Assembly: GCA_017541105.1 (NCBI GenBank)
Contig: JAFXZS010000007.1
Span: 1 to 63,928 of the forward strand
Reading direction: 5' to 3'
From: Clostridia bacterium
GTDB lineage: Bacteria; Bacillota; Clostridia; Christensenellales; Aristaeellaceae
Length of the DNA: 63,928 nucleotides
Shown here: piece by piece, positions 11,070 to 34,849 of the stretch
Layout: every line of letters begins with the position of its first letter
How positions within the stretch are numbered: the first letter of the stretch is position 1
Program-made: the position numbers and the translations under genes
Notes under the pieces: model-generated
The model's input: the letters and a program-made list of their open reading frames with translations, nothing else
The model's database searches: none
Told to the model about the DNA's origin: nothing

Positions 11070-11888
11070 TTAATCCAGGCCGACCCGGAACAAATACATC
11101 CACAGGCGGGACCGGTAGCGGCCATACTGGCCGCGGGCGAGATACAGATCCTTCAGATGGCGGTAAAGCAGTATTTTCATCCGAATATTCCGGATCGGAT
11201 GACGGATGGAATCCAGCACCTGTGTCACGGTCATGGAGCCGGGCTGGCGCCGGTAATCATACAGGTAATCCTTCAGGAAGGCGACCCTGCCGGCACCCTG
11301 CAGATAATCCATGACAAAGGCAAAATCCTCTCCCCAGGTTACGCCGTCCATAAAATGAACTCCCCGGGACTCCACGCGTTCCCGGGAGAAAAGCTTATTC
11401 CAGAGGACACCGTAAAAATATGAATTGGAGTGAGGGCAGAGGAGACGGAGCACCTCGTCACAGGGCAGGGTGTCCTCCCGGTTCTCCAGGTTTTTCCGGC
11501 GGACAATATCACCCATATACATGGTGTAGCCGCCGATCACCAGATCGGCGCCTTCCAGCTCGGCCTTGAGGACCATGCGTTCCATAGAATCGGAAGGAAG
11601 CGTGTCATCCCCGTCCACAAAGCGGATGTATTTTCCCCGGCAGAGGGAAAGGCCGAGATTACGGGCAGAGGAGACACCGGCATTGGGCTGGGAAAGCACC
11701 GTGACCCTGGGATCTTCTGCCTCGAAATCACGGGCAATGGAGAGGGTGCAGTCAGAACTGCCGTCATCCACCACGATGACCTGCAGCGCGCTCCAGGACT
11801 GGGCCAGCACACTCTGCAGCGTACGCTTCAGAGTCTTTTCCGCATTCCAGGCCGGAATGACTACGCTGACCAGGGGCTGTGCATCCAA
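11070..11888 (-). CDS. Family 2 glycosyltransferase (GT2)
   Basis: 272 residues from a TTG start at 11888. This start is chosen because AAAGAGGTG lies 7 bp upstream and because a promoter (11923-11951) would lie inside a longer frame beginning at 11951. The sequence begins with the GT-A fold signature LVSVVIPAWNAEKTL, then VVDDGSSD and FVDGDDTLP (DXD-type metal/UDP-sugar site). No transmembrane segment is evident. Acceptor and sugar cannot be told from sequence. The next gene in the operon is the intracellular GH13 enzyme, which may hint at a glucan or glycolipid context but is not proof. Confidence 0.88.
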   Translation of the reverse strand: MDAQPLVSVVIPAWNAEKTLKRTLQSVLAQSWSALQVIVVDDGSSDCTLSIARDFEAEDPRVTVLSQPNAGVSSARNLGLSLCRGKYIRFVDGDDTLPSDSMERMVLKAELEGADLVIGGYTMYMGDIVRRKNLENREDTLPCDEVLRLLCPHSNSYFYGVLWNKLFSRERVESRGVHFMDGVTWGEDFAFVMDYLQGAGRVAFLKDYLYDYRRQPGSMTVTQVLDSIRHPIRNIRMKILLYRHLKDLYLARGQYGRYRSRLWMYLFRVGLD

Positions 11889-11922
11889 GCAACCGCACCT
11901 CTTTCCGAACAATCTTGCAGCT

Positions 11923-11951
11923 ATTCTATCATGAAAACAGGCCCGGTTCAA
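11923..11951 (-). promoter_or_regulatory. Extended -10 promoter of the GT2-GH13 operon
   Basis: Minus strand TTGAAC (11946-11951), 17-bp spacer ending TGA, then TAGAAT (11923-11928). Transcription would start near 11916, just before the ribosome site for the TTG start. Confidence 0.7.
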
Positions 11952-11960
11952 GGATGAGAC

Positions 11961-11989
11961 TTGCTCTTTGCCGTTCTCTCTGCTATCCT
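11961..11989 (+). promoter_or_regulatory. Divergent promoter for the DUF1653 gene
   Basis: TTGCTC (11961-11966), 17-bp spacer ending TGC, TATCCT (11984-11989). Its -35 lies only 9 bp from the -35 of the divergent GT2 promoter, so the two could interfere with each other. Confidence 0.55.
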
Positions 11990-12037
11990 GATCTCCGGAA
12001 ACGGCAGGCCATTCAACAGGAAACGAGGGAAACCGCC

Positions 12038-12511
12038 ATGACGTATGAAGAAGCAGCCCGGAGGATTCTGCCCGGGATTTACCGCCACTTCAAGGGGAAT
12101 GCCTATCAGGTGATCGGTGTCGCACGGCACAGTGAAACGACGGAAGCCGTGGTCGTGTACAGAGCGCTCTACGGAGAGGGCGGACTGTGGGTCCGGCCCG
12201 CGGAGATGTGGAACGAGACCGTGGAACAGGGCGGAATCCGTGTTCCGCGGTTCCGCCGAATGGACACCGAAGAGCGAATTACCTTTTATGAGCAGATCTA
12301 TGATGAACTGAGCAGCGGACAGGCGGATATGCCGGACGCAAGGCGGAAACTGGACATCCTGGAAGATTACTATACTTCCGGCCGGTGGCGTGCCGATTAT
12401 GAGGCGGATGAAGCAGGAAAGCTTCCGGAGAGCCTGAAGCGCGGCGTGCTTTCACAGGACGGAGTCTATAATCTTCTGGCGGAATGGCAGGAAAGAAGGC
12501 TGGAGGAATAG
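12038..12511 (+). CDS. DUF1653 domain protein
   Basis: 157 residues; ATG at 12038 preceded by GAAACGAGG. Residues ~12-75 are the DUF1653 domain (GIYRHFKGNAYQVIGVARHSET...VVYRALYGEGGLWVRPAEMW), a small beta-domain of unknown biochemical role that is widespread in bacteria as a short stand-alone protein. The C-terminal ~80 residues are charged and mostly helical, with no motif I recognise. It is monocistronic, with a shared terminator against the lacI-type gene coming the other way. Confidence 0.85.
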   Translation: MTYEEAARRILPGIYRHFKGNAYQVIGVARHSETTEAVVVYRALYGEGGLWVRPAEMWNETVEQGGIRVPRFRRMDTEERITFYEQIYDELSSGQADMPDARRKLDILEDYYTSGRWRADYEADEAGKLPESLKRGVLSQDGVYNLLAEWQERRLEE

Positions 12512-12512
12512 G

Positions 12513-12541
12513 AAAACCGTGCCTGACGGCACAGGTTTTTC
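12513..12541. terminator. Bidirectional intrinsic terminator
   Basis: AAAACCGTGCC / GGCACAGGTTTTT form a stem with one bulge around a TGAC loop. A tracts and T tracts on both sides let it serve both the DUF1653 gene and the convergent regulator gene. Confidence 0.8.
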
Positions 12542-12550
12542 CTTCCGGAC

Positions 12551-13543
12551 CTAATCCCTCCGGACGAGATCTACGGGGAGGCAGATCTGCTGCGGGGGCA
12601 GGGACCGGTCGTGGATGCGCTTCCGGATCAGGTCGATGGCAGTGCAGGCTTCCGTCTTCAGATGGCAGTCCACGGAAGAGATCGGCTTTGGGAAACTGAT
12701 ATAACCGAGGATATTATCAAAACCGACTACCGTCAGATCCTCCGGGACACGAAAGCCGGCGCTTTCCAGCAGGGTGATGGTATGCCAGGCTTCCACATCG
12801 CAGAAGGAGAAGAGGCCTGTGACTCCCTGGGTCATCCAGATTTTCAGCTGCTGAAGAATGGCGGATGAATCATTCAGGCAGGCATAAAAAACATGATCAT
12901 CCGGCAGGCCGGATTCCGCGCAGGCTCTGCGGAATCCGGAAAAGCGCTCCCGGGAGGAAAAAACCACCTGATGATAGGTCAGCATAGCCAGTTTTCTGTG
13001 GCCGGTCTCCGCCAGGTATTTCCCGGCCAGATAACCGCCTTCGGCATCGTTGCAGTAAACACAGTCGTCCAGCGTTCCGTCCTGATAGCGGCTGAGAAGA
13101 ACGAAAGGGATGCCGGCATTGCGCAGGGTGGAAAGAGCGGGGGAGTCGAAGGAGCAAGGGGTGATCAGCACCCCGTCCACCTGCCTGGAAATGGCCATCT
13201 CCACAGCCTGAAGCTCTGTATCCGGATCATCCTGAGAGGAGAGAATAATCAGGCTGTACCCCAGGCGGACGGCTTCCCGCTGAATCAGGTCCGCCAGGAT
13301 GGCGTAGAAGGGATTGATCATGGAACCGGCAATCATAGCCAGGGTTTTCGTCCGGCCGGAGCGGAGGGAACTGGCAAGATAGTTACGGACATAGCCCATG
13401 TCCCGGGCGACTGCCTGAATATGCCGGCAGGTGTCCCGGGAGATATCTTCCTTGTTTTTCAGCGCTCTTGAAACGGTATTGACAGTATAGCCTGTCGCGG
13501 CGGCGATATCCTGGAGCGTCACCCGTCCTTTATCCGTACTCAT
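12551..13543 (-). CDS. LacI-family transcriptional regulator of the arabinan cluster
   Basis: 330 residues. An N-terminal LacI helix-turn-helix (VTLQDIAAATGYTVNTVSRA, residues ~8-27) with hinge helix YVRNYLASSLRSG is followed by a periplasmic-binding-protein-type effector domain (TKTLAMIAGSMINPFYAILADLIQ... GFDNILGYISFPKPISSVD). It is divergent from the transporter/glycosidase operon. The intergenic region carries palindromes of the LacI type, one just downstream of its own promoter, so autorepression and repression of the operon are both expected. The effector is probably arabinose or an arabino-oligosaccharide, judged only from the target genes. Confidence 0.92.
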   Translation of the reverse strand: MSTDKGRVTLQDIAAATGYTVNTVSRALKNKEDISRDTCRHIQAVARDMGYVRNYLASSLRSGRTKTLAMIAGSMINPFYAILADLIQREAVRLGYSLIILSSQDDPDTELQAVEMAISRQVDGVLITPCSFDSPALSTLRNAGIPFVLLSRYQDGTLDDCVYCNDAEGGYLAGKYLAETGHRKLAMLTYHQVVFSSRERFSGFRRACAESGLPDDHVFYACLNDSSAILQQLKIWMTQGVTGLFSFCDVEAWHTITLLESAGFRVPEDLTVVGFDNILGYISFPKPISSVDCHLKTEACTAIDLIRKRIHDRSLPPQQICLPVDLVRRD

Positions 13544-29414: not shown

Positions 29415-30342
29415 GCTCTGTGAGCGGTATTACGAGGCCTTTGGGGCGCCGATGCTCCGGGAGCAGTTTCCCGAGCTGGAAGGTGTGCTGGCGGCAGGGC
29501 TGACGGGCAGCGGTTCGGAATGCTACGGCTATGACGACGAGATATCCCGGGATCATGATTTTGAGCCCGGGTTTTGCCTATATCTGCCGGGAGAGGAAAC
29601 GGTCGACCGGCGGACGGCTTTCCGGCTGGAACGGGCCTACGCGAAGCTGCCGGCAGAATTTGAAGGCATCCGGCGGCAGAAGATGCGGCCGGCGGGCGGG
29701 CAGCGGCGGGGAGTATTCCGGACAGAGGAATATTTCCGGGAAAAGATCGGCTGCCTGCCGCGGGAGATGACCGCGCAGGATTGGCTGGCCGTGCCGGACT
29801 ATGCCCTGGCGGAAGCGGTCAACGGAAAGATCTTTTGGGACGGAGCCGGGGAGATCACCCGGGAACGGGAAATCCTGCGGAACATGCCGGAAGACTGCCG
29901 AAGGAAGCGAATGGCCGGCCATCTGCTGATGATGGCCCAGAGCGGACAGTACAACTATCGCCGGTGCCTGCAGCATGGGGAGACCGGTGCGGCACAGCTG
30001 GCGGCGGGGCAGTTCGCGGACCACACGCTGAGCATGGCGTTCCTGCTGGAAAAGCAGTACCGCCCTTACTACAAGTGGAGTTTCCGGGCACTGCGGGCAT
30101 TGCCGGGCGGAGAGGATCTGGAGCGGTCGCTGGAGTGGCTGCTGACGACGGAGAACGGGCCGGACATCGCAGAGGATAAATACTTCTGCATGGAAGGGAT
30201 CGCATCTGACGTGATTGAGAAGCTGCAGGCACAGGGACTGACAGAGGCGGCCTGCGGGGATCTGGAGAAGCACGCGTATTCGGTAAACGACGAGATTGCG
30301 GACAGCGGGATCCGGAACCTGAATATACTGTGCTGCGTGTGA
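29401..30342 (+). CDS. DUF4037 nucleotidyltransferase-like protein
   Basis: 313 residues, ATG at 29401 with AAGGAGATCC inside the end of the TPR gene. The N-terminal part carries LTGSGSECYGYDDEISRDHDFEPGF, the hallmark of DUF4037: a GS..D.D arrangement like nucleotidyltransferase (MNT-type) active sites. The helical remainder includes LPREMTAQDWLAVPDYALAEAVNGKIFWD and QYNYRRCLQHGE. Chemistry is not established for this family; nucleotide transfer is only suggested by the motif. Coupling with a TPR partner suggests a two-component unit. Repeats follow the stop. Confidence 0.82.
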   Translation: MKGLELCERYYEAFGAPMLREQFPELEGVLAAGLTGSGSECYGYDDEISRDHDFEPGFCLYLPGEETVDRRTAFRLERAYAKLPAEFEGIRRQKMRPAGGQRRGVFRTEEYFREKIGCLPREMTAQDWLAVPDYALAEAVNGKIFWDGAGEITREREILRNMPEDCRRKRMAGHLLMMAQSGQYNYRRCLQHGETGAAQLAAGQFADHTLSMAFLLEKQYRPYYKWSFRALRALPGGEDLERSLEWLLTTENGPDIAEDKYFCMEGIASDVIEKLQAQGLTEAACGDLEKHAYSVNDEIADSGIRNLNILCCV

Positions 30343-30440
30343 GGATCCTTCGGCAAGCTCAGGATGACACGGGGAGGATCCTTCGGCAGGCTCAGGATGA
30401 CACGGGGAGGATCCTTCGGCAAGCTCAGGAGGACACGGAA
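30343..30440. repeat. Three tandem type A intergenic repeats
   Basis: Three copies of GGATCCTTCGGCAAGCTCAG or GGATCCTTCGGCAGGCTCAG plus GATGACACGGGGA (period about 34 bp), the last ending AGGACACGG. Confidence 0.85.
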
Positions 30441-30484
30441 GGTTTCAGGATCACAATTAGGGCAGAGTTGGGAGTGCGAAGAAA

Positions 30485-31135
30485 TTGAACAAACAGGATA
30501 CCATGCTGATTTTTGACCTGGACGGGACGCTGTGGGATTCCGCGGAGGCGGTGGCGGAAGCGTGGAACGAGATATTTCTGCGGGAGGATCCGTCGCTGCC
30601 GAAACTGACGGAGGAAGATATCCACGGTGTCATGGGTATGACGATGAAGGAAATCGGCCAGGTGCTGCAGCCGATGCTGGCGCAGGACCGGCGGGAAAGA
30701 GTTTTTGAGGAATGCTGCCGGTACGAGGTTGAATATCTGCTCAGCCATACCGGAAAGCTGTATCCGGGACTGCGGGAAACGATGGAAGCCCTGCGGGCCC
30801 GGGGATATTCCCTGGCGATCGTCAGCAACTGCCAGCTTGGCTATGTCGAGGCATTCATGAAAGGGAGCGGCATGAGGGATCTGTTTGACGATTACGAGGA
30901 GTGGGAGCGGACCGGCCTGCTGAAGGGGGAGAATATCCGCCTGGTCATGGAACGGAACGGATTCAGGAAGGCTGTGTATATCGGGGATACGGCAAAGGAC
31001 CAGGAGGCCGCGAAGCTGGCCGGGGTTCCGTTTGTGCACGCGGCGTACGGATTCGGGAAGGCGGAGAAGCCGGAGGGAGTGATCCGCGCGCTGACGGAAC
31101 TGCCGGAGGAGATCTCTCGACTTCGCTCGAGATGA
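30485..31135 (+). CDS. HAD-superfamily phosphatase (phosphoglycolate-phosphatase-like)
   Basis: 216 residues from a TTG at 30485; an ATG at 30503 is the alternative start, and neither has a strong ribosome site. HAD motif I is MLIFDLDGTLWDS (nucleophile Asp), motif II IVSNC, motif III Lys in LLKGENIR, motif IV YIGDTAKDQEAA. Substrate cannot be deduced. The last residues (EEISRLRSR) and the stop codon are encoded by a type B intergenic repeat that runs into the gene, so the native C terminus was probably replaced when the repeat arrived. Confidence 0.88.
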   Translation: MNKQDTMLIFDLDGTLWDSAEAVAEAWNEIFLREDPSLPKLTEEDIHGVMGMTMKEIGQVLQPMLAQDRRERVFEECCRYEVEYLLSHTGKLYPGLRETMEALRARGYSLAIVSNCQLGYVEAFMKGSGMRDLFDDYEEWERTGLLKGENIRLVMERNGFRKAVYIGDTAKDQEAAKLAGVPFVHAAYGFGKAEKPEGVIRALTELPEEISRLRSR

Positions 31136-31315
31136 CACGGGGAACGGGGGAGGATTCTTCGCTGCGCTCAGAATGACACGGGGGTTCAGGATGACACGGG
31201 GAAGGAGCGCGCAGGAGATCTCTCCACGCGCTGCGCTTGGTCGAGATGACACGGGGAACGGGGGAGGATTCTTCGCTGCGCTCAGAATGACACGGGGGTT
31301 CAGGATGACACGGGA
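31105..31315. repeat. Composite block of type A and B repeats (gap before gdhA)
   Basis: The unit order is B (31108-31136, overlapping the HAD gene end), A, short GTTCAGGATGACACGGG, B, A, short unit. A segment of about 70 bp (GAGATGACACGGGGAACGGG... GTTCAGGATGACACGGG) is present twice. No gene is visible between 31136 and the leader peptide-free gdhA promoter; the rest of this 340-bp gap holds the gdhA promoter and leader. Confidence 0.85.
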
Positions 31316-31351
31316 ACAATGCGGAAAAACACGATTAATGCAGAGTACACA

Positions 31352-31381
31352 TTGACAATCAACAGTTTCCGGGAATAGAAT
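31352..31381 (+). promoter_or_regulatory. gdhA promoter
   Basis: TTGACA (31352-31357), 18-bp spacer, TAGAAT (31376-31381). Start near 31388 gives a leader of about 88 nt. Confidence 0.75.
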
Positions 31382-31389
31382 TGCTCGCG

Positions 31390-31442
31390 TAAAGGCAATG
31401 GCGTCTTTAACCATGTTGTGTGTTAAAGGCGTTTTGTTCTTT
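31390..31442 (+). promoter_or_regulatory. Attenuator-like leader of gdhA
   Basis: An 11-bp hairpin (31401-31411 with 31422-31432, two G-T wobbles, 10-nt loop) followed by TTTTGTTCTTT looks like an intrinsic terminator placed 33 nt before the gdhA start. A competing upstream stem (TAAAGGC 31390-31396 with GTCTTTA 31403-31409) uses the same left arm, so two exclusive structures are possible. The trigger is unknown. Confidence 0.5.
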
Positions 31443-32871: not shown

Positions 32872-32900
32872 TTGACATGTGTCCGCTGTGGGAGTATGAT
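32872..32900 (+). promoter_or_regulatory. Strong promoter of the paaK-ACT operon
   Basis: TTGACA (32872-32877), 17-bp spacer, TATGAT (32895-32900). Predicted start near 32907, leaving a structured leader of about 190 nt before paaK. Confidence 0.82.
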
Positions 32901-32946
32901 GCACCTGTCTTAAGACGACGACACTGATTCAGGGAGATTAATTGTG

Positions 32947-32994
32947 ATGATGTACAGTGCGGCTTTCTTCTTTAGCAGCATTGCGATGGATTGA
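32947..32994 (+). CDS. Phenylalanine-rich leader peptide (15 aa)
   Basis: Sequence MMYSAAFFFSSIAMD, stop TGA at 32992-32994. AGGGAG at 32931-32936 is a good ribosome site, and an in-frame GTG at 32944 would add one residue. Three consecutive Phe codons (TTC TTC TTT, 32965-32973), with one Tyr codon, recall the pheA and pheST leader peptides of enteric bacteria. The final codons overlap the sequence GCGATGGATT (32983-32992), which can pair with the left arm of the downstream terminator, so ribosome position would decide the fold. Confidence 0.72.
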   Translation: MMYSAAFFFSSIAMD

Positions 32995-33055
32995 TAAGCG
33001 CCCGGGAGCGCGAGAATCCACCGCCTTTTGAGGTTGAAAGGCGGTGGATTTTTTT
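32983..33055 (+). promoter_or_regulatory. Transcription attenuator upstream of paaK
   Basis: Terminator: perfect 14-bp stem (33015-33028 with 33037-33050), 8-nt loop, then seven T. Antiterminator: GCGATGGATT (32983-32992) pairs with AATCCACCGC (33015-33024) with one A-C mismatch, using the terminator's left arm. A ribosome stalled at the Phe codons leaves the first strand free (antitermination). A ribosome reaching the stop codon at 32992 covers it (termination). Structures seen by eye; the regulatory logic is inferred. Confidence 0.72.
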
Positions 33056-33094
33056 GTAGCTCTCCATCATCCGCAGAAAGGGAGGATTCAGACT

Positions 33095-34402
33095 ATGAGC
33101 AGGTATTACCAACCGGAAATCGAAACCGCGCCGCGGGAGAAAATCCTGGAAATCCAGAACGAGAAGATTGTGCGCCAGGTACAGCATGTGTGGGACAATG
33201 TTCCGTATTACCGGCACCTGATGGAAGAGAAAGGGCTGACCCCGGCGGATATCCGCGGGGTGGAGGATATTCACAAGCTGCCCTTCCTCAGCAAGGCGGA
33301 TCTGCGGGACGCTTACCCCTACGGCCTGCTGGGCACGGACCTGAAGAACTGCGTCCGTATTCAGTCCACCTCCGGTACGACGGGGAAGCGTGTTGTAGCC
33401 TTCTACACGCAGCATGACGTGGACCTGTGGGAGGAATGCACCGCGCGGGCGATCGTGGCTGCGGGCGGAACGGAAGAGGACGTTGTACAGGTGTGCTACG
33501 GCTACGGCCTGTTCACCGGCGGCCCCGGGCTGCATGGCGGATCCCACAAGGTGGGCTGCCTGACGCTGCCCATGTCCTCCGGCAACACGGAACGGCAGAT
33601 TCAGTTCATGATGGACCTGGAAGCCACGATCCTGTGCTGCACGCCTTCCTATGCGGCGTATATCGGTGAATCCCTGGCGGAGCGCGGATTCAAGCCGGAG
33701 GATAACAAGCTGAAGGCCGGCATTTTCGGCGCGGAACCATGGACGGAGGAAATGCGCAGGGATATTGAGAAAAAACTCGGAATCAAGGCCTATGATATCT
33801 ACGGTCTGACAGAGATCAGCGGCCCCGGTGTATCCTTCGAATGCGAGGAACAGAAGGGCATGCATATCAACGAGGACCACTTTTATGTGGAAATCATCAA
33901 CCCGGAAACAGGAGAAGTGCTGCCGGACGGCGAAAAAGGGGAATTGGTATTCACCTGTCTGGACAAGGAAGCGTTCCCGCTGCTGCGGTACCGTACCCGG
34001 GATATCTGCGTGCTGAACCGCACGCCCTGTTCATGCGGCCGCACCCATGTGCGCATGACCAAGCCAATGGGCCGCAGCGACGATATGCTGATCATCCGCG
34101 GCGTCAACGTTTTCCCGAGCCAGATCGAGACTGTACTGCTGAATGAGGGCTATACGCCCAATTACCAGATCGTGCTGGACCGGGAGCGCAACACCGATAC
34201 CTTTGACGTGTATGTGGAAGTCGGGGCGGATCAGTTCTCCGACCTGATGTCCCAGATCCAGAAGATGGAAAAGAACCTGGAGGGCGCGCTGCGCACGATG
34301 CTGGGCATCAGCCCGAAGGTTCACCTCGTCGCTCCGAAAACCATTACCCGCAGCGAAGGCAAAGCCGTCCGCGTCATCGACAAGCGGAAGCTGCATGACT
34401 GA
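33095..34402 (+). CDS. paaK: Phenylacetate-CoA ligase family enzyme (arylacetate-CoA ligase)
   Basis: 435 residues, the usual PaaK length; ATG at 33095 with AAAGGGAGG. It activates phenylacetate or a related aryl acid to its CoA thioester with ATP. Visible marks are YYQPEIETAPREKILEIQ, the nucleotide loop TSGTTGK (92-98), FGAEPWTEEMR, AYDIYGLTEISGPGVSFEC, and the C-terminal domain YRTRDIC ... MGRSDDMLIIRGVNVFPSQIE. In anaerobes such enzymes work with indolepyruvate-type ferredoxin oxidoreductases, in aromatic amino-acid fermentation or, in rumen bacteria, in making phenylalanine from phenylacetate. Control by a Phe-rich leader would fit the biosynthetic direction. An ACT protein gene follows 21 bp downstream; iorAB is not in the window. 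Confidence 0.9.
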   Translation: MSRYYQPEIETAPREKILEIQNEKIVRQVQHVWDNVPYYRHLMEEKGLTPADIRGVEDIHKLPFLSKADLRDAYPYGLLGTDLKNCVRIQSTSGTTGKRVVAFYTQHDVDLWEECTARAIVAAGGTEEDVVQVCYGYGLFTGGPGLHGGSHKVGCLTLPMSSGNTERQIQFMMDLEATILCCTPSYAAYIGESLAERGFKPEDNKLKAGIFGAEPWTEEMRRDIEKKLGIKAYDIYGLTEISGPGVSFECEEQKGMHINEDHFYVEIINPETGEVLPDGEKGELVFTCLDKEAFPLLRYRTRDICVLNRTPCSCGRTHVRMTKPMGRSDDMLIIRGVNVFPSQIETVLLNEGYTPNYQIVLDRERNTDTFDVYVEVGADQFSDLMSQIQKMEKNLEGALRTMLGISPKVHLVAPKTITRSEGKAVRVIDKRKLHD

Positions 34403-34423: not shown

Positions 34424-34849
34424 ATGGCAATCTCGCAATTATCCCTGTTTCTGATGAATCAGCCCGGGCAGCTGGTGGACGCCGTCGGGGCCATTTCCGG
34501 CACCGGCGCGAACATTCGCGCCATGAGCATTGCCGAGGCCAACGATTTCGGTATTCTCCGGGCGATCGTAACAAATTCGGAAGCCGTATGCAATGCATTG
34601 AAGAACAATTATCTGATTACCCGCACACCTGTGGTGGCGGCAAAGATGGACGACAGGACCGGAGCGCTGTTTCCCATTCTGAATGTTCTGAACGAAGCGA
34701 ATATCAATATTGAGTATATGTACGCGTTTACGGGGACGGGCCCTGACGAAGCTTATGTGGTGCTGCGGGTCAATGACCCCGACACCGCGGAAGCGGTGCT
34801 CCATGCCGCCGGCATCGGGACGCTTTCGGATGATAACCTGAAAATCTAA
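34424..34849 (+). CDS. Tandem ACT-domain protein associated with PaaK
   Basis: 141 residues, ATG at 34424 with AAGGAGGG. Two ACT folds: residues ~3-70 (LSLFLMNQPGQLVDAVGAISGTGANIRAMSIAEANDFGILRAI) and ~72-141 (AAKMDDRTGALFPILNVLNEANINIEYMYAFTGTG). ACT domains bind amino acids and regulate enzymes. Stand-alone pairs next to paaK are frequent in anaerobes; a role in sensing an aromatic amino acid for the ligase is an inference. Its stop codon overlaps the end of bioY coming from the other strand by 4 bp. Confidence 0.88.
   Translation: MAISQLSLFLMNQPGQLVDAVGAISGTGANIRAMSIAEANDFGILRAIVTNSEAVCNALKNNYLITRTPVVAAKMDDRTGALFPILNVLNEANINIEYMYAFTGTGPDEAYVVLRVNDPDTAEAVLHAAGIGTLSDDNLKI

Follow-up and report, generated by a model that had tools for sequence, protein, structure and literature searches.

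In enteric bacteria, the pheL and pheM leaders of pheA and pheST combine a peptide containing Phe codons, a terminator with an antiterminator, and a downstream gene of phenylalanine metabolism. The same elements recur in a leader before a paaK-type arylacetate-CoA ligase gene in the window studied here, a stretch of 63,928 nucleotides from a Clostridia genome, but in this case the target is paaK together with an ACT-domain gene, the lineage is Clostridia, the module is reused with other codons, and no Rfam family matches it.

Phe attenuators in other species are mentioned in PMC1262725. The ilv attenuator Rli60 of Listeria, a Firmicute, is ribosome mediated and has been tested experimentally; its first structure is given as -10.3 and its terminator as -17.1 kcal/mol, so that the two rank as they do in the window leader, but Rli60 concerns branched-chain amino acids, and the comparison made here is one of energies and mechanism (PMC5864092). 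His leader attenuators predicted in the Bacillus cereus group, Eubacteriales, and Erysipelotrichales are likewise Firmicute leader peptides with runs of the regulated codon, but they concern histidine, and the excerpted text notes no module common to several targets (PMC9413887). The uORFC-13-1 motif before aroF in Acholeplasma is described as a predicted upstream ORF that contains a Phe codon and is followed by a terminator and the gene for a DAHP synthase; it differs in lineage and target, and it carries at least one Phe codon, not a run (PMC8632094). The T-box likewise reads tRNA charging by antitermination, whereas in the window leader the ribosome would be the sensor.

Among the papers listed in literature searches, none was recognized, from titles and abstract openings, as describing a leader of this kind before paaK. 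As attenuators are known in Firmicutes and none was recognized in this position, we rate the paaK leader as a new element of a known mechanism: the mechanism is of a known kind, while target, lineage, and exchangeable codon block appear to be new.

Leader upstream of paaK

All elements of the leader lie on the plus strand, with a glutamate dehydrogenase gene upstream. A sigma-70-type promoter spans 32872..32900 (TTGACA at 32872-32877, a 17-base spacer, TATGAT at 32895-32900), and its position predicts a transcript start near 32907. The ribosome-binding site GGGAGA (32932..32937), assigned from the sequence and from Shine-Dalgarno-like purine stretches in relatives, precedes an ORF at 32947..32994 that encodes the peptide MMYSAAFFFSSIAMD up to its stop codon, is conserved in relatives, and contains the control codons TTC TTC TTT for phenylalanine at 32965-32973. 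Strand 2, the first half of the putative antiterminator (GCGATGGATT, 32983..32992), covers the final codons of the ORF and reaches one base into the stop; by direct reading it pairs at 9 of 10 positions with AATCCACCGC, the exception being a single A.C mismatch. A small hairpin, GCGC/GCGC (32998..33011), lies within the loop of this 2:3 helix, where relatives have a hairpin with other bases. Strand 3, assigned from sequence and conservation, is the left terminator arm (33015..33028), and strand 4 comprises the right arm and seven T (33037..33055, with T7 at 33049-33055); direct reading gives a 14-bp terminator stem of 33015-33028 and 33037-33050. The paaK-type gene (33095..34402, ATG at 33095) encodes an arylacetate-CoA ligase of 435 aa matching PF14535, PF00501, and TIGR02155, and the second gene of the operon (34424..34849) encodes an ACT-domain-pair protein (PF19571, ACT_8).

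An earlier sequence-only reading had claimed promoter, ribosome site, Phe ORF, strand 2, terminator, and paaK in this order, and the parts agree with it base for base. Folding of 32907-33094, a check that it had suggested, gives the 14-bp terminator as the most stable structure, with a z score of -2.49 and 3 of 200 shuffles equally stable, which is modest taken alone.

We consider it highly probable that paaK-ACT is governed by a ribosome-mediated transcription attenuator sensing charged tRNA-Phe, a prediction built on sequence and modeled pairing. With ample Phe-tRNA, the ribosome would pass the Phe codons and reach the stop codon adjoining strand 2 (32983-32992); strand 2 being covered, the 3:4 terminator would fold and transcription would stop before paaK. 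Under a shortage of Phe-tRNA, the ribosome would stall at 32965-32973 and leave strand 2 exposed, and the free strand would pair with strand 3 (33015-33024), so that the terminator would come too late and paaK-ACT would be transcribed. Stalling, termination, and readthrough in the cell are what we infer from this arrangement.

Other classes of RNA element gave no account of the leader. At gathering score, no Rfam 15 family, T-box (RF00230) included, matched the window, and a T-box was not found up to E 0.5 at two window-type leaders (L054, L079). A search of ten leader loci up to E 0.5 returned two Rfam matches, neither in a window-type locus, and a T-box or other Rfam element was rejected as the identity of the leader in view of the absence of a covariance-model match there. 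T-boxes occur at E 0.001 in 45 of 45 genomes of the window's genus (34 above the cut-off), so the two kinds of regulator coexist in the genus.

As a separate observation, minus-strand frames at about 30069-31400 of the window contain recurring words like CHSERSEESS and look like translated dispersed DNA repeats; similar-looking repeats lie between leader and paaK at L005.

Conservation in the genus

The search for PaaK covered 45 genomes of the genus, among them the window's own. Near-full-length matches of at least 87% identity were taken as close orthologs (n = 26 with the window; a partial match of 90% in G022 was left out), and 21 of these 26 carry the leader upstream, with ORF, codons, strand, and terminator kept. 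The other five (G003, G004, G009, G010, G040) do not carry it. Leaders were located with the string CCACCGCCTTTT; a profile search that tolerates changes (R1) added no further paaK leader and had no match in those five genomes. Five of the genus mates are uncultured Clostridia metagenome-assembled genomes (MAGs), three of them labeled sheep rumen, sheep duodenum, and goat jejunum.

Twenty genus leaders were aligned, omitting G001, whose peptide is identical to that of G031. Strand 2 (GCGATGGA) and TCCACCGCCTTTT are invariant in all 20, the first Phe codon is always TTC and the third always TTT, and the second position encodes Phe in 17 and Ala in 3, giving a peptide pattern of M...F[F/A]F...AMD. 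An ACT match adjoins paaK at each of the 21 leader-bearing loci. A loose promoter pattern, counted with no shuffled control, precedes 27 of 33 homologous leaders at a distance of 59-87 bases from the leader start. Outside the genus set, a 3.4-kb contig of a g10 genome (L131, G145:C160) bears a genus-type leader and paaK, and transfer or misbinning is possible.

Conservation in 21 of 26 close orthologs rules out a chance origin of the leader. Relatives that share the terminator keep the short ORF and its Phe codons as well, the opposite of the pattern named beforehand as fatal to the attenuator. The 14-bp hairpin is strong enough, and dominant enough in the fold, that one might see here a plain intrinsic terminator preceded by a chance ORF, yet such a terminator would hardly come with its own promoter-like sequence, an ORF conserved across many species, and a module that is found again upstream of pheA and aro genes at other places in the genomes. 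We regard that explanation as barely credible, and a chance ORF before the terminator is contradicted by conservation.

Predicted alternative pairing of the leader RNA

For 33 leaders of the window's type (29 distinct segments), located by GCGATGGA[TC] together with TCCACCG, the stretch bounded by strands 2 and 3 was folded alone, and the 2:3 helix was the minimum-free-energy structure in all 33. Its core, GCG.UGGA:UCCA.CGC, keeps the central A.C mismatch in 33 of 33, a count to be read knowing that the leaders were partly located by this core; the mismatch either tunes the switch or reflects the importance of the Met codon. Outside the core, differing paired bases lengthen the helix, as in GCUG:CAGC (the Tyr leader of G020, g1) and UUGU:ACAA (g35), and the inner hairpin of the 2:3 loop varies between leaders.

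When a stalled ribosome was mimicked by holding 32955-32982 unpaired in an RNA ending at 33030, the 2:3 helix was predicted to form, and when a ribosome at the stop was mimicked (32977-33006 unpaired, full RNA), the terminator was predicted to form. With the stalled-ribosome mask on the full RNA, the predicted minimum was again the terminator. Antitermination must therefore be kinetic, since full-length RNA prefers the terminator even with the stalled ribosome masked. Among genus Phe leaders, the 2:3 segment has about -14 to -18 kcal/mol versus -18 to -26 for the terminator. G080 and 7 of 8 aro leaders show the reverse order, so one energy balance cannot serve all copies. In G080, G114, and the aro leader of G024 (L191, L189, L178), strand 2 begins 24-36 bases before the stop codon; as a ribosome at the stop would leave strand 2 partly uncovered, termination in these copies needs a different kinetic account.

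The expectation that the antiterminator would show covariation was borne out in part. RNAalifold on the 20 genus leaders returned the terminator and a stem from the Shine-Dalgarno sequence to the Phe codons, with no antiterminator, whose core is invariant; because the core strands do not vary, core covariation is no test of the window-type family. The expectation holds for the extension and the inner hairpin, which change with pairing kept, and in other Clostridia, where a second architecture has its antiterminator rebuilt with other paired bases (below).

The same switch before other aromatic genes

In the genus, R1 gave 26 full-length matches with E up to 1e-6, of which 21 stand before paaK, 1 before a pheA-type gene of the window's own genome, 3 before a chorismate mutase-prephenate dehydratase gene or aroB, and 1 at a contig end. 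An aromatic gene thus follows all 25 strong matches with a readable downstream gene. The second copy in the window's own genome, MRPYVSGFFFSRSAMD (G000:C16:104367-104504), precedes genes for prephenate dehydratase and DAHP synthase. The three aro matches, with a weak one in G042 (E 0.059), are Tyr-rich leaders that retain AMD: MFAYSYFYFYSIAMDS, MFANSYYYFYSPAMDG, MMFAYAYYYFTGAMDGRG, and MRKVFGYYYFRNAMDG.

A model of the Tyr leaders (R2) was run in 308 genomes of the family and R1 in 300. These searches added MRRPDGYFYFISAMDG and MFMYYYFYFNTAMDGR in genus g12 and MRQIAYNRSFYFTVAMDCALLA in genus g35, all before a chorismate mutase gene, MKGYSYYFTGAMDERRDASV before aroB in G024 of the window's genus, and MRAMLMRFFSFFAFTSAMDCCTAPCRTE before paaK in g37. 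Copies with Tyr/Phe codons and a constant pairing module thereby stand before chorismate mutase or aro genes in three genera. Among 396 genomes of the order, R2 matched 6, all in the window's family. Of 45 matches to chorismate mutase-prephenate dehydratase genes in the genus, 30 were examined, and the module was present only at G000, G020, G006, and G042; the scan covered 330 bases before the assumed start, and some starts are doubtful (that of L147 lies inside the gene). Downstream genes were assigned by NCBIfam at L083, L085, L306, L307, and L310, and elsewhere by eye from the protein start.

Several candidates were discarded. Weak R1 matches in the genus (L076-L078, L088, L089) proved on reading not to be leaders, and G036:C50 was left out; family matches L132, L134, L135, and L137-L141 held a terminator alone or nothing and were dropped, with G048 and G208 left out. 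A loose pattern, GCGATGGAN{8,38}TCCACCG, matched 36 of 45 genomes, often outside leaders, and for that reason was not used for counts.

Other architectures before paaK

To cover PaaK relatives, up to 700 upstream bases were scanned for ORFs at 80 named loci among the matches listed; within these, 3 loci had window-type leaders (genus mates) and 6 had a different Phe leader, exemplified by MNRKITANHTFGFIFSFTFSFTDIDSKVNLLC, in MAGs labeled Lachnospiraceae, Ruminococcus, and Eubacteriales. In an alignment of six sequences of this second architecture, 91.7% of antiterminator cells pair, and at one antiterminator pair three sequences have A-U and the other three G-C; the covariation score was reached by 24 of 500 shuffles and the number of covarying pairs (1) by 230 of 500. 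Its terminator has three doubly changed pairs (17 of 500 shuffles; score, 2 of 500).

A model of the second architecture (R3) was run on 348 genomes of the family of G311 and matched 14, with a leader confirmed by reading in nine. Three of the nine precede paaK, one precedes genes for prephenate dehydratase and DAHP synthase (MNSRANLKSASYFFFFAFTSSRCKGNL), four precede a DAHP synthase gene, and one precedes a gene for a TrpB-like protein. The four leaders before DAHP synthase are of the Tyr/Phe kind, with prephenate dehydrogenase or chorismate mutase adjoining, and the last is a Trp version, MKNIRIANLFWWWRFTEKQ (L306, 1500-1700), before a TrpB-like pyridoxal phosphate (PLP) enzyme. Matches L312, L313, L314, and L316 showed no leader on reading, and L315 was left out. 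When segments from strand 2 to strand 3 were folded, the antiterminator formed in 11 of 14 with differing paired bases (GGUUAAU:AUUAACC, GGUUGAU:AUCGACC, GGUCG:CGACC, and others); with the segment ends chosen, it did not form in the remaining 3 (L308, L309, L310).

A third architecture occurs in G037 and G011, before paaK genes 55-56% identical, with peptides that end in FWFFGFSFTLFPI and FCFFSFFFTPFPI; here a strand, CCCATCTGAAAG, pairs with the terminator loop. R3 had no match in 18 loci of other architectures, and R1 and R2 each had one weak match in 16 such loci (E 0.04 at L305 and 0.99 at L307). As these weak matches sit close to leaders, the architectures may share a remote origin. Apart from this, a subthreshold match to Clostridiales-1 RNA (RF01699; 37.2 bits versus a gathering score of 48) precedes a paaK leader by about 100 bases, on the minus strand of L304 at 1742-1895.

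The codon block follows the gene

Leader peptides with at least two Tyr account for 0 of 25 distinct peptides (32 leaders) before paaK or pheA and for 12 of 12 upstream of aro or DAHP synthase genes; excluded from the count were G145, G024:C26, the Trp leader, and both leaders of the third architecture, which have no Tyr. Because the leaders are related to one another, the contrast is overstated by the Fisher p of 5e-10. The pattern of Tyr/Phe codons and targets is found in two separate architectures, and paaK leaders are Phe dominated in different architectures, with at most one Tyr per peptide.

This correspondence bears on whether the peptide itself, and not its codons, is what is sensed. 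An FxF..AMD nascent chain might arrest the ribosome with or without a ligand such as phenylacetate, codon sensing being secondary. AMD does stand in one frame in the 33 tabulated leaders, and the A.C mismatch is kept in all of them beyond any need of pairing, a constancy that is partly a selection effect because the leaders were partly located by the core. However, the peptide is variable between the Phe/Tyr block and AMD, the stop after AMD has no fixed position, F gives way to Y in the aromatic block according to the target gene, GCGATGGAT is required as strand 2 regardless of coding, and the peptide tail of the second architecture is quite different. Nascent-chain arrest is accordingly a very improbable account, and codon-sensing attenuation remains our preferred reading.

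Role of PaaK and phenylalanine synthesis

The window PaaK is a predicted PaaK-like aryl-CoA ligase: it matches TIGR02155 at E 7.1e-155 with 515.7 bits, below the equivalog cut-off of 646.3, and its nearest solved relatives are 2y4o and 4r1l. Its production of phenylacetyl-CoA for reductive carboxylation to phenylpyruvate would fit the predicted induction under phenylalanine shortage. The sequence-only reading had proposed a search for iorAB elsewhere in the genome; the family model located iorA at G000:C16:9305-11095, and an iorB-like frame, recognized by eye, adjoins it, followed by a second paaK at 11745-12968. TIGR03336 (iorA) is present in 41 of the 45 genomes of the genus; among the 21 that have a paaK leader, 20 contain it, the exception being G038, which is about 60% complete.

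No conserved Phe leader was found before iorA in 13 loci of genus iorAB-paaK operons. One isolated Phe-rich short ORF, MKPTGLFLFFR, precedes iorA at L288 and has no counterpart in the other loci; the iorA upstream regions also contain longer frames in which aromatic residues are scattered. T-box-like elements just below the cut-off begin about 80 bases downstream of the second paaK match (G007:C29:143334-143581, G001:C1:309530-309777, G031:C1:775710-775957).

The attenuator could be real and PaaK still serve some purpose other than phenylalanine synthesis, acting on another arylacetate or in phenylalanine fermentation, where phenylpyruvate goes to phenylacetate; this alternative concerns the metabolic role only and is compatible with the attenuator. 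In its favor, PaaK misses the TIGR02155 equivalog cut-off, and oxidoreductases of this superfamily take part in the fermentation of aromatic amino acids by other anaerobes, according to PMC13285125. Against such a role, the predicted expression on phenylalanine shortage suits synthesis rather than breakdown, Phe dominates the codon block of paaK leaders in different architectures, pheA of this genome is preceded by a copy of the switch, iorA is present, and rumen bacteria form phenylalanine from phenylacetate (Allison 1965, as cited in PMC7356843). We hold a nonbiosynthetic role to be unlikely, if a good deal less so than the alternatives to attenuation. Our analysis suggests instead that PaaK-ACT, with an indolepyruvate-type oxidoreductase encoded elsewhere in the genome, would serve phenylalanine synthesis from phenylacetate.

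Discussion

The Phe attenuator proposed from the sequence is supported by the parts of the leader, their conservation, the predicted alternative pairing, and the match of codon block to gene. A short ORF with a ribosome site follows a promoter, as judged by sequence and conservation, and contains a run of codons for the regulated amino acid, with Tyr and Trp versions before other genes. The evidence for a terminator and a mutually exclusive antiterminator at the end of the ORF comes from predicted pairing and from conservation, not from covariation of the core. The downstream genes belong to the same metabolism, directly so for the own-genome prephenate dehydratase-DAHP synthase copy and presumably so for paaK.

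More broadly, we think it reasonably probable that gut and rumen Clostridia possess an aromatic regulon in which a constant terminator/antiterminator module carries an exchangeable codon block (Phe, Tyr/Phe, Trp), in which paaK has Phe attenuators of at least three architectures, and in which the route from phenylacetate to phenylalanine is regulated. Leader-peptide attenuators would then stand beside T-boxes in Clostridia, their specificity altered by a codon swap on a fixed switch, and there is no Rfam family to detect attenuators of this kind.

A ligase induced by phenylalanine shortage is most simply biosynthetic, so the leader would offer a cultivation-free sequence signature that hints at the direction of a pathway. 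If this picture is correct, the reductive carboxylation of phenylacetate to phenylalanine would be a regulated biosynthetic route, with paaK-ACT as the first step behind the 1965 rumen observation, and that old finding of phenylalanine formed from phenylacetate would become testable at definite genes.
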